Shown piece by piece: positions 13,805-21,638 of a DNA stretch of 64,000 nt; position 1 is the first letter of the stretch; every line of letters begins with the position of its first letter. The DNA is from Romanomermis culicivorax. Taxonomy: Eukaryota > Nematoda > Enoplea > Mermithida > Mermithidae. The notes under the pieces were generated by a model. It was not told the origin of the DNA, ran no database searches, and saw only the letters and a list, made by a program, of their open reading frames with translations. Both the position numbers and the translations under genes were made by a program. Location of the stretch: positions 372,001-436,000 of the forward strand of contig CAWUHX010000087.1 of NCBI GenBank assembly GCA_963922205.1, in the 5' to 3' direction.

Positions 13805-15040
13805 TGGCCCTCCTCATCCAGATCCTCTTGACCTGGATGATGAGGCACTTGCTGAACACCTGACAGATTCTTCACAACAGTGTTATCCCGTCTGCGTAAT
13901 CAGTATTGGATTTTCAGTGGTCCAAGCAGCCCAGGTACCCGTACCGATAACTGTATCGGACATACCGCTGCCACCACCACCAAAGTATGCGATGCCGGTC
14001 ACTCTGGACCCTTCGACGACACCGCAGTTTGTTGGCCACGCTAACATCCTCGCATCGTATCGCATTCCTAAAATTAAGACTGCCGAGCCAGCTCCAGCCG
14101 CGAACACGACATCTTTGGCGCCACCGGCCCGCATCGTCCCTCCAGGACCACCGCCTTCGATCCCCATGGATTCGGCTACGGAAGTCCTCGACCAGGTCGA
14201 GCCCATGAATTTGTCAGGTATACTACCTTCTTCTTCAGGTGATCCTAGAGTAGGAACCAGAAATCTATCTCAGTCCACGACTCTATCGATTTCTTGTTCA
14301 CAGCGCCATCGCCCATCCAAGACGCGATGTTGGCCATCTGGTCAGTTGACCTGGCCAAGAAATACCCGCATTTGCCGTGGACTCTGCTCAACGAGCCATC
14401 GCATGTCGAAGCGCTCACGGCCGCCGATGTCGTGCTTGCAGCACCCGTCTCAATGTGACTCTTACGACCCGACGTCGCCCGACGGGCACTCGAGTTCATT
14501 GCCAATGGGACTATCACAATCTCGCCCGTCGAGAAGTTCTTATTGGACGGGGAGCCATCCTCGCCTTCAGTCGATGCCGTCCGCCGAGCAGTCGAACAGG
14601 CCAGTCGGATCCTCCTGCCTGCTGTCGCCGCTACATCACTGACAGCAGCACCACCTGTTGCCGCGACATCGCCAACAAAAATGGACATTACTGCTTCCTC
14701 GCCCCCGGCCAAGGAACCCGCAAATGATCCTACACCGCTGGCAACAGCCCAAAATACATCGTCGGCAACAGCCCAAGTCAAATCGCCGGCGCCAGCCCAA
14801 GCGACATCTCCGACCGCTGCGACCAAGTCGCCCGTCGTCAAACACATGGCCGTCGACGAGACCTTACGTCTGGTTAATGAAGATGTCAGCATCGTTGAGG
14901 AATCTCCGTTCCCAACGGCAGTCGCCCCACGGTCGCCAAAAATCGGTATCCTCCGGGAAATCCACCCGTGCGGTGGATTGGTCCTCGATTTCCCCGGCCA
15001 GGAGCCAATTTCGTCTGACAGCGACGAAGAAGAAATCTGA
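13803..15040 (+). pseudogene. Disrupted Pro/Ala-rich ORF between gag and env (ORF-X)
   Basis: Coding-like sequence continues from gag in the +1 frame (13803 to about 14240). It is rich in Pro, with DGPPHPDPLDLDDEALAEHL near its start. It then resumes in the gag frame from about 14249 to the stop at 15038-15040. That second half has natural composition, includes AMLAIWSVDLAKKYPHLPW, and ends in an acidic tail DSDEEEI. One in-frame TGA interrupts it at 14456-14458. So the copy carries at least one frame change and one nonsense codon, unless recoding is used. I do not recognise the protein. Confidence 0.6.
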
Positions 15041-21000: not shown

Positions 21001-21638
21001 GTATGTATGTTCACCAAGGACATACCGATTGGGATGAACACCTACCATACGCTGTGTTTGCCGTCAATATCAGCATGAATGAGTCAACAGGGTACTCGCC
21101 CTTTGAACTCATGTACGGTCGCACACCCATGCTCCCTGTTGATGCCGCGCTCTCATTCAACCCTCCGGCCCATATCATTAATGTTTCCTCATATGATATG
21201 GAGGTCAAACGTCATTTCACGAATGCGTTAACCTTAATCCAGAGTCGGATTGAGAAAGCACAGGAAGCCTATGCACGGTCGTACGACTGGAAGGCACATG
21301 ATGTCTCGTACAAAGTAGGGGATCAGGTGCTCAAACTGCGCACCTCCAGCAAACGTGGGCTCACTCCTAAATTGCTGCCCATCTACGATGGTCCCTACCT
21401 TGTAACAAGTGTGGCATATCCCAATGTCACACTTCGTCTCGAGATGGATCAGGAAGACACTGTACATGTCAACCAGCTTCGACTTTACGTGTCCCCTGAA
21501 CAACCGAGTGAAGCAGAGGATACACCTCCCACTTCACAGGCAACAGGTTCGGCACCCTTATTGTATCCCTCAATAAGCCGGGACTTTACACCGAATCTGA
21601 TTGACCCACATCTTGATGCAGAGGTCCCCGACCCTTAA
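14658..21638 (+). CDS. pol: Env-protease-RT-RNase H-integrase polyprotein frame
   Basis: The single open frame is 2326 codons. The first ~125 codons overlap ORF-X and look like a shadow; family-like sequence starts at about 15039. Domains by frame residue are: signal peptide ~141-169, glycoprotein ectodomain ~170-690, membrane segment ~691-721, protease-like 1 with DTG at 781-783, Ser/Arg linker ~913-970, protease 2 with DTG at 1113-1115, RT with YLDD at 1534-1537, RNase H ~1670-1790, integrase ~1935-2150, and a GPY/F module ~2215-2280. No Met lies between the ORF-X stop and the signal peptide. Translation must therefore enter by frameshift from ORF-X or from a spliced leader. The frame has no internal stop. 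Confidence 0.9.
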   Translation: MPRHRQQKWTLLLPRPRPRNPQMILHRWQQPKIHRRQQPKSNRRRQPKRHLRPLRPSRPSSNTWPSTRPYVWLMKMSASLRNLRSQRQSPHGRQKSVSSGKSTRAVDWSSISPARSQFRLTATKKKSDTAPQARFVKLSEHLQITFVQLFLTIKLTLVASLFLGVSLSAPAAQYQFCGLSRSGHPLELPQRVECKPPQSSWSPRRMNVTVYVPSSDPITATAWKCTLRSRKVCTNTGFFGSRGITADVITTQHLAPAACTLAHRTKMFGSQKLVGVRPGFYSTNQTLEVMYEWCCSDVCKTVTNLFIEEGQVASWDGTTALSTLGDVGGCSPTAGQCTTLDGVIVWPAQNFTARCHYHPKGNYTASMSGNYVIIDDLQVALKILGNSRVFQLCPELRSTTVRTDQGLLLRIHGRYNLTQNLFRTAKDSRPDPVNAKLNYLAQQIKESEINGFRFTWLELCSHAQRYLDLTWQLLRFDPTLGARAFLQRNDLTAEFTGDALTIWPCQKVNATYVYHSYRVGNVCYKYLPVQVGGTIYFATPGGPDLIKSSPIVPCHHHFTGIFRNRSGWFTESGVVHVSHIPLELFWKQRFNITHFEAPALFHDQLAMTPSNFAFFKQYVYKTEQIEAVLNRLVNFTAGLSLQPDAIYQAFAGVGTDIKASLEGVGLAANHVITGQQHTLAQGLHAVLSGPVQLIFNILITLTVLIGVGYLAYLGVSYYLSYRLRSKQVRFVSRFSPLGLYRKVQRWIGFHYVQNDVPSQLDRITPCFVVLLDTKETPAFLDTGCPRTIISQRLHKALAKESPKAVMAFQQHHDFNPLMSINGKAVHTILSGPYEIMLPGNRQPNTRIDIHLHVCKTTSPFWAPVDLILGLDFLEQFKNIMFDYQRNVCRLDAVELPLLLTTPEIDQIDPWWENTRALSRNSHRSGSRSRSRASSISQPHSRASSVASSRGSTRGSRASSRRASRHLSTLHGSGCPRPPPGTSPVTLEKGRYREPSDSDAPASPVPNAPPLSDTEIESLGATQSPKDHSDHVLTVQDESTLLNDPEPSVGYALVGLLRRTGLPIPKRSGKTKHTCGATTPDSGHVVTAFYPNDIRTPHIKVLLNNWVEAKALVDTGAVFSLLDHKLAAQLPNLSLLPTRARPIAANGSPIPLLGAAYITVTVADVSERIQVQIQENCSAELVLGTNFLGRFNCVSLNWEKSFLQFKESRIPCDGLIHSPPSARGALPLKDLVILEPRSLTRFTVPVPPIYTNVPEVAFFPKHLTGSQRHVYFAGSVSSVTNGHIPLQVVNPSTHSVVLYPHTTIGHVQMHSEPSRGSPVDSYTVLDHQWVEANAVISPDISPRDRAALLDLLVAYTDLYALDEKDTGSTDLVQHEISTGDARPVHRFPYRSSPKEKDLIMQEVKALQEKGIIRPSTSPWATNTVLVRKKNGSHCMCVDFRGLNEVTKKDVYPLPRIDDILDTLKGMKYFTTLDQANAYWSIPIAEADKEKTAFNTPIGLYEFNYLPFGLCNAPGTFQRLMDLLLTGIQWRTVLTYLDDILVFRNSHTQMLERLADVFARLRRGGMKLRLSKCKFSHSEVEYLGYRISQSGLEPDQAKLAAVQNLPIPQNAKDIKSFLGLVSYYRRFIPGCARLSEPLTKLLRKETTFQWSKPQQEAFDELRRLLTNPPILRHPDFSKSFILQTDASISGIGAVLSQLDEHGYDHPVAYASRGLTAAEKNYSITELETLAVVHFVKHFRPYLFQHEVVVQTDHTAVKAVLEKPNPSARIARWGLALAEFKLTIRPRKGQSNGNADALSRLPDPNSLTGQSIDDTPLYRPEGHVMMITDGAQHLARSRTLTDGVQHLARSSNSAPITVGAERPVRSESYAEISVGAQHPDLFAAQLEDPDLADIIRSLKPLGDQNDVRGYHLLDNVLQKWTGESNKIVIPRSMVTTIIRAHHDDILAGHFGAKCTARLIARRYHWPSLSRDVKSFCQRCDLCQRNKPARQKTTATLKPITITGPFHRVGVDCMGPMTTSEAGNRFIVVFIDYFTKWVEAFATPDITAHTIARLFVTQIVCRHGAPQILQSDRGTDFTSKLMTEITAICATKKIHSTAYHPMTNGEVERANQTLATRLRMYVHQGHTDWDEHLPYAVFAVNISMNESTGYSPFELMYGRTPMLPVDAALSFNPPAHIINVSSYDMEVKRHFTNALTLIQSRIEKAQEAYARSYDWKAHDVSYKVGDQVLKLRTSSKRGLTPKLLPIYDGPYLVTSVAYPNVTLRLEMDQEDTVHVNQLRLYVSPEQPSEAEDTPPTSQATGSAPLLYPSISRDFTPNLIDPHLDAEVPDP
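15039..16910 (+). CDS. env: Envelope-like glycoprotein segment
   Basis: A hydrophobic signal-like stretch (FVQLFLTIKLTLVASLFLGV) ends near SLSAPA. A Cys-rich ectodomain of about 520 residues follows, with nine N-X-S/T sequons. Next come a helical, sequon-bearing stalk and a long membrane segment near the end (about 16728-16820), then a short basic tail. This is the plan of a type I viral fusion or attachment glycoprotein. I cannot name its viral family from memory. It lies upstream of protease and RT in the same frame, while errantiviruses and retroviruses have env downstream of pol. No clear furin site was seen. Confidence 0.75.
16911..17370 (+). CDS. First retropepsin-like domain
   Basis: The aspartic protease signature FLDTGCPRTII (DTG at 16998-17006) is followed about 85 residues later by the hydrophobic-hydrophobic-Gly motif LILGLDFLEQF. 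These are the two hallmarks of a retropepsin fold. The domain lies immediately after the envelope membrane segment. A second, more canonical retropepsin follows 330 residues later. It could be the working protease, or a relic used as a spacer. Confidence 0.7.
17395..17580 (+). other. Ser/Arg-rich linker between the two protease domains
   Basis: The translation is a run of SR, RAS and SRGS repeats of about 60 residues, low in complexity. Similar linkers bind RNA or are flexible. Its role here is unknown. Confidence 0.6.
17935..18260 (+). CDS. pro: Second, canonical retropepsin domain
   Basis: ALVDTGAVFSLL (DTG at 17994-18002) and ELVLGTNFLGRF are typical Ty3/Gypsy protease signatures, lying upstream of RT as expected. 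The spacing between the two motifs is normal for the family. Confidence 0.85.
18770..20070 (+). CDS. pol: Reverse transcriptase and RNase H domains
   Basis: RT motifs are in order: KGIIRPSTSPWATNTVLVRKK, the DFRGLN block, FTTLDQANAYW, LPFGLCNAPGTFQRLM, and the catalytic YLDD at 19257-19268. The connection LGLVSYYRRFI follows. RNase H begins near 19680 with FILQTDAS, has the E of TELETLAVV, and runs through TDH to NADALSR. All residues expected for catalysis are present. A short repeat in the spacer before integrase (TDGAQHLARS, TDGVQHLARS, VGAERPVRS, VGAQHP) looks like a local duplication. Confidence 0.93.
20460..21520 (+). CDS. int: Integrase with zinc domain, DDE core and GPY/F module
   Basis: The HHCC zinc domain includes HHDDILAGHFGAKC and CQRCDLC. 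The DDE core has Asp at 20679 (VGVDCMG), Asp at 20859 (QSDRGTDF) and Glu at 20967 (GEVERAN). This gives the D-35-E spacing of retroviral-type integrases. The C-terminal part holds PIYDGPYLVTS, a GPY/F-type module. No chromodomain is seen. The frame ends at 21636-21638. Confidence 0.92.

Follow-up and report, generated by a model that had tools for sequence, protein, structure and literature searches.

Retrotransposons can turn infectious by capturing an envelope gene, an event commonly seen as the addition of a final gene that is expressed from a separate spliced RNA. Can an envelope instead be carried in the middle of the coding chain, between the capsid and the enzymes? The question is raised by a long terminal repeat (LTR) element in the genome of Romanomermis culicivorax, located in a stretch of 64,000 nucleotides (assembly GCA_963922205.1, contig CAWUHX010000087.1, positions 372,001 to 436,000), which was analyzed as a whole and is referred to as the window. 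The complete element occupies window positions 7430-23617 and is a member of the Ty3/gypsy-type (metavirus) LTR lineage. An initial annotation had proposed that an envelope-like glycoprotein is encoded there upstream of protease and reverse transcriptase (RT) and in their frame. The order gag-env-pol and the shared frame were found in many copies and in diverged families, gag, env, and pol have a common history, and env is under selection. We consider it fairly probable that the RNA of this lineage encodes Gag, a class III-like envelope, and Pol in one long frame as a polyprotein with an internal signal sequence.

The components of the window element follow each other in the order leader, gag, a linker with an overlapping gene termed X, env, two retropepsin-like segments, RT, RNase H (RH), and integrase (IN) with a GPY motif. 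Its coding features are:

12509-13804, plus strand: gag, with a putative Ty3-type capsid and two CCHC knuckles (13544-13585 and 13595-13639), by a weak Pfam match and motifs.
13805-14642, plus strand: gag 3' portion plus linker, read in the env frame, which ends at a stop (14640) in the window copy.
14327-15040, plus strand: overlapping gene X in the -1 frame, with a conserved ATG and a selected frame; a stop lies inside it in the window copy.
15039-16910, plus strand: env, fusion glycoprotein PF24664, by Pfam profile.
15102-15158, plus strand: internal signal-like hydrophobic segment, a 19-residue Kyte-Doolittle peak only.
16734-16790, plus strand: env membrane segment, a 19-residue hydrophobic peak.
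16911-17301, plus strand: first retropepsin-like segment, DTG at 16995 and ILG at 17256, by motifs and a weak Pfam match.
17850-18299, plus strand: second retropepsin, DTG at 17991 and VLG at 18198 (PF13975, E 1.6e-11).
18933-19412, plus strand: RT core (RVT_1, E 1.9e-33).
19674-19988, plus strand: RNase H (RT_RNaseH, E 9.6e-37).
20433-21398, plus strand: integrase with H2C2, core, and the GPY motif at 21384 (Integrase_H2C2, E 2e-21; rve, E 5.1e-9).

A single open frame of 2331 amino acids, running from stop to stop (14643-21638), spans env through integrase. The RT motif YLDD (19257) as well as the zinc-finger and D, D, E motifs of the integrase lie in the frame of env. With this frame, the PF24664 match, and the in-frame motifs and Pfam domains, both the position of the glycoprotein ahead of protease and RT and its stop-free continuation into protease, RT, and integrase were found as initially proposed. 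The proposed order gag-X-env-pro-pro-RT-RH-IN was likewise seen, with two amendments: X overlaps as a separate gene in a different frame, and the first retropepsin-like segment stayed below the Pfam cut-off (E 0.0046), though DTG and ILG are both there. The start that had been assigned to 14658 was abandoned. The TTG at this position is merely the first table-11 start after the stop, and 47 of 71 copies scored in the host genome continue upstream through gag. The Ty3_capsid match of the window gag is weak (E 1.1e-4, 22.2 bits, under the Pfam cut-off of 29.1). The window copy is a defective member of its family. Its gag is out of the env frame by a 2-nt deletion relative to another locus (L002), comparison with an open copy showed 2-nt and 3-nt deletions at the gag end, and one stop is present in the linker (env frame) and another in X.

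The env segment was compared with profile hidden Markov models and proved to be a viral-type fusion glycoprotein. It matched Pfam Monjiviricetes_fusion (PF24664) with an E value of 3.5e-14 and 52.1 bits (cut-off 27), and the same cut-off was exceeded by all eight of eight diverged relatives from the host genome (50.3-69.9 bits). The suspicion that the segment is without glycoprotein homology was ruled out by this match. Borna virus G (BDV_G) was matched weakly by the window env and was found in four of the eight relatives, once above its own cut-off; herpesvirus gB (PF00606) was found in two of the eight, below the cut-off. When a profile of twelve env sequences (alignment A3) was compared with all PDB sequences, the top matches were four glycoprotein B chains and one chain named ORF8, which we take to be a gB (E 0.012-0.038). 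They covered one central stretch of the ectodomain, and the next entry was a ribosomal protein (E 0.087). Given the PF24664 match and the weak similarity to Borna virus G and herpesvirus gB, env is probably a class III-like fusion glycoprotein. The F-type (class I) envelope of errantiviruses was not among the matches, which were PF24664, BDV_G, and weakly gB only. A PDB search with a single env sequence gave no meaningful match, and PHROGs gave none. Three protein searches with env returned three relatives at most, the same ones each time and all of them unnamed; viral contigs searched with the window env and with P0001, a relative at 36% identity from the protein search, contained no confirmed relative. 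The signal peptide, Cys-rich ectodomain, nine sequons, and membrane segment noted earlier were recovered as a signal-like Kyte-Doolittle peak, 16 Cys, 9 N-glycosylation sequons, and a second hydrophobic peak. Among nine representatives of the lineage, the hydrophobicity threshold was passed by the signal-like segment before mature env in eight and by the membrane segment in all nine.

The host genome (359 Mb) was searched with env, and 71 of 4228 first candidates were scored. Each of the 71 covered the whole of env at 98-100% identity, and three had a stop inside it. An open frame of 3090-3116 codons surrounds env in 47 of them. Thus, gag is joined as well, as such a frame has room for gag, linker, env, and pol in one. 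Env with 1.5 kb on either side (4872 nt) was then examined for 30 loci; 22 were open over the whole 4872 nt, i.e. from the gag end through env into protease. Copies were up to 99.9% identical over the stretch compared, and it follows that the window family moved recently. An assembly join or a lone odd copy was ruled out by the 71 scored copies on many contigs and by many diverged relatives.

The diverged relatives were reached with P0001 as genome query (81 of 3636 candidates scored), and many of the copies lie in open frames of about 2400-3100 codons. A second family of 12 copies (L031-L042) has env, then protease, then RT in 12 of 12, gag upstream in 11, and every piece in one frame in 7. 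Eight further representatives (L043-L050), taken as stretches of 7-8 kb and including two that are close to one another (L048 and L050), all have the order gag-env-pro-RT-RH-IN within one frame that stays open over 2270-2614 codons to the stretch end or a 5' stop. Their env is 41-47% identical to that of the window. One of them, L045, has an additional retropepsin between gag and env (1951-2460, 31.5 bits versus a cut-off of 28.2), giving gag-pro-env-pro-RT. Ten more copies had gag upstream and RT downstream without exception, in the env frame in eight. A search with RT, performed to avoid choosing copies by their env, led to 135 scored out of 7804 candidates. In the 0.7 kb upstream of six RT loci, env was read in frame in five; the remaining locus, whose open frame is short, had none. 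As a separate observation, one RT copy (G000 C122:531782-532645) lies in an open frame of 3612 codons, exceeding its relatives. Env after pol, the errantivirus arrangement, was found in none of the copies examined for order; env precedes protease and RT. The order was thus the same in the window family and in the diverged families, and none of the outcomes that the initial annotation had named as fatal to its proposal (env solely after pol, no glycoprotein match, or an assembly join) appeared.

Pairwise distances of gag, env, and RT-RNase H agreed among the nine representatives (Mantel r 0.90, 0.87, and 0.94; p 0.0001-0.0003). The clades (L043,(L049,(L044,L046))) and (L047,(L048,L050)) were recovered in all three trees; L045 and the window were placed differently among them. 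From the congruent distances and clades we deduced that env has been inherited together with gag and pol from their common ancestor onward. Judged by sequence, that ancestor is old enough for RT-RNase H of L043-L050 to have fallen to 60-65% identity with the window. Selection was evaluated as the ratio of nonsynonymous to synonymous change (pN/pS) in the 22 open loci, and the 8 of 30 with broken frames were left out. Read in its own frame, env had a value of 0.10, with both other frames exceeding 1; the first protease stretch had 0.07. In the second family, the linker between gag and env is selected in the env frame (0.41 versus 0.90 and 0.98; 11 of 12 loci). A first run of this linker test was uninformative, and it was repeated with the divergent locus L041 dropped.

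The linker of the window family behaves differently along its length. Selection acts on the env frame at the gag end and on the -1 frame, that of X, in the region of about 14339-15037. Per 100 nt of this region, pN/pS in the X frame was 0.05, 0.00, 0.14, 0.19, 1.30, 0.23, and 0.29, as opposed to 1.1 to infinity in the env frame. The assumption that this stretch serves as the env-frame part of a Gag-Env-Pol protein was therefore rejected as the selected reading, since the substitutions follow the -1 frame. The start ATG of X at 14327 is kept in 30 of 30 loci, and its stop abuts env. X has no Pfam match, and no sign of it was seen in the linker of the second family. Across X, the env frame is nevertheless stop-free in 28 of 30 loci, whereas every locus has 3-7 stops in frame 1. 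From the X protein and the codon use of the element, the expectation for the env frame over X is about 7 stops (P ~1e-4, computed for four copies); env and protease controls had stop counts as expected. As the env frame is held open across X while X itself is selected, both frames seem to be used. X probably depends on a spliced mRNA or on internal initiation for its expression. Its message could be spliced from a donor-like site in the LTR (8334) to a pyrimidine-rich candidate acceptor at 14226-14238, the exact form of which is present in 25 of 30 loci.

In the polyprotein that we favor, Gag, linker, Env, and Pol would be translated as one long chain, the Gag part of which would remain cytosolic. 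At the env start, the hydrophobic segment would act as an internal signal sequence and direct the ectodomain into the endoplasmic reticulum. The env membrane segment would stop transfer, so that Pol would stay cytosolic. Cleavage would be performed by host signal peptidase on the luminal side and by the element's own retropepsin(s) on the cytosolic side. In 28 of 30 loci, no Met occurs between the position 52 codons before 15039 and codon 79 of the env segment, and thus a start for env immediately ahead of the signal segment is not conserved. Several points weigh against such a chain. Its translation and its cleavage are predicted from sequence alone. It would yield equal amounts of Gag, Env, and Pol, which is unusual. 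The leader holds 50 ATGs ahead of the gag ATG, making plain scanning to gag unlikely. The signal segment of L044 is under the hydrophobicity threshold, and a Met at most about 25 residues before mature env, which would suit a separate env start, is found in 5 of 9 representatives. Selection in the window-family linker acts on X and not on the amino acids of the env frame. The stop-frequency test covers four copies only, and frame 1 stops are also under expectation (3 and 6 versus 9.1 and 10.3).

In the best surviving alternative, Env or Env-Pol has its own mRNA, spliced or separately initiated, and the continuous frame is a by-product. Errantivirus env is typically expressed from a spliced transcript, according to the accessible part of PMC12992720, and a strong donor-like site is present in the LTR. 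The Met near mature env in the five representatives would be in line with it, as would the Met that every window-family locus examined (30 of 30) has 52 codons before 15039. However, a Met beside the signal segment is not conserved, the second-family linker is selected in the env frame, and the env frame is held open across X. A strict acceptor (Y8..YAG) was not found just before env, and the weaker CCCCTCAG is conserved there in 30 of 30 loci. We regard separate expression as possible, yet doubtful. A frame switch at the gag end would make Gag-X the main product and leave Gag-Env-Pol to unswitched ribosomes only, the inverse of the usual Gag/Gag-Pol frameshift. It would fit that selection shifts near 14.3 kb out of the env frame into the -1 frame, the stop of which abuts env. 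A heptamer scan revealed no candidate near the switch, however, X has its own conserved ATG, and the other families checked need no frame switch; we deem this improbable. That env is a dead passenger, or its order a local rearrangement of one copy, is scarcely credible even with the window copy broken in gag and X, as it is contradicted by purifying selection on env, the 47 of 71 open copies, the diverged families in the same order, and the congruent trees.

The noncoding parts of the element agree with its assignment to Metaviridae, in which LTRs with a short target-site duplication (TSD) enclose protease, RT, RNase H, and integrase with RT ahead of integrase. TGCC was found on both sides, and the enzymes were recognized in this order by Pfam profile matches. 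The LTR pair is 98.2% identical (12 mismatches and 14 gap positions in 1438 aligned columns).

7426-7429, unstranded: left TSD, TGCC, in flanking sequence by eye.
7430-8860, plus strand: 5' LTR, TGTCAC...GTGACA, ends placed by eye at TG..CA.
8334-8341, plus strand: candidate AG|GTRAGT donor-like site, by motif scan.
8861-8878, plus strand: putative primer binding site region TGGCGAGGCTGG..., a candidate from its position adjoining the LTR.
10012-10710, plus strand: leader array of TGACGTCnGCAAC motifs at ~65-nt spacing, by motif matches.
22198-23617, plus strand: 3' LTR, by LTR-LTR alignment.
23618-23621, unstranded: right TSD, TGCC, in flanking sequence.

The donor-like site is the sole one in the internal and LTR sequence, its second copy (23090) belonging to the 3' LTR. 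In the leader, which extends for 3.6 kb 5' of gag, TGACGTCnGCAAC has 12 plus-strand matches with at most 1 mismatch within 10012-10710, mostly ~65 nt apart. With up to 2 mismatches, 19 matches were counted in the whole window versus 1.6 expected. It calls to mind the insulator array that Drosophila gypsy has in its leader. A 34-nt sequence 3' of the pol stop (21673-21706) recurs with 97% identity at the border of the 3' LTR (22166-22199), possibly as a doubled plus-strand primer region. The element is bracketed by an inverted repeat (6831-6924 and 23621-23714, 82% complementary), the right arm of which begins at the TSD. The next gene after the element comprises exons of a tyrosine kinase with an SH3 domain on the minus strand (24778-33793), Src-like in our reading, and marks the host as an animal. 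A tRNA-Asp gene was located at 27038-27109 (minus strand), and a weak ISXO2-like transposase fragment at 52134-53085 (PF12762, E 0.0018, below the cut-off). Open frames at 62503-63906 (minus strand) resemble a non-LTR retrotransposon RT by eye only.

Among known systems, env-bearing Ty3/gypsy elements (errantiviruses and the envelope-carrying gypsy of metazoans) are like the window element in their LTRs, PR-RT-RH-IN enzymes, and virus-derived envelope, and probably in their Ty3-type gag. Errantivirus env is of the F type and forms the third open reading frame (ORF) after pol, typically on a spliced RNA (accessible part of PMC12992720). In the window element, by contrast, a class III-like env lies between gag and pol in frame rather than last. 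Atlas virus, for which the accessible text of PMC9094657 describes Gag, Pol, and Env joined in one stop-free ORF with env last, and its kin (Belpaoviridae, hookworm) share with the window lineage a single ORF that includes env. They differ in being BEL/Pao elements whose env is class II, phlebovirus-like, and last, a position that env does not hold in the window element. Anakin of mosquitoes is a Pao element with a chuvirus glycoprotein (excerpt of PMC7642597). It resembles the window element in its captured Jingchuvirales-type glycoprotein, the tie to PF24664 being our own reading, and differs in its Pao lineage. The accessible portion of PMC10084718 reports no clear evidence for capture of a chuvirus-type glycoprotein by Gypsy or Copia; here, a probably class III-like envelope was seen in a gypsy-type element. 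Bdelloid elements carry a paramyxovirus-like env in a third ORF (excerpt of PMC5408684), and Cer1 has an accessory protein encoded by a spliced RNA (excerpt of PMC10309623), a possible parallel for X. An element with env between gag and pol did not turn up in our literature search, by which its absence is not proven.

Herpesvirus gB, bornavirus G, and Monjiviricetes fusion proteins have profile matches to the middle of the ectodomain, whereas the window env is part of a retroelement polyprotein frame. Where, as in many families here, the fusion protein forms part of the structural-enzymatic chain, membrane insertion and maturation have to proceed in another way, as does control of the Gag:Env:Pol ratios, and the many near-identical copies offer a natural system for the use of an internal signal sequence by a reverse-transcribing element. 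In the flavivirus polyprotein, one chain comprises the capsid, then a signal and membrane glycoprotein, and then the enzymes. The resemblance is one of layout only, without sequence relation, and the window element is reverse-transcribing. With about even confidence, we propose that a class III env was set between capsid and enzymes once, in the common ancestor of a diverse, recently active, infectious-type metavirus lineage, and would since have been inherited mid-chain in a flavivirus-like Gag-Env-Pol polyprotein, to which one family added an overlapping linker gene and others a second protease beside env.

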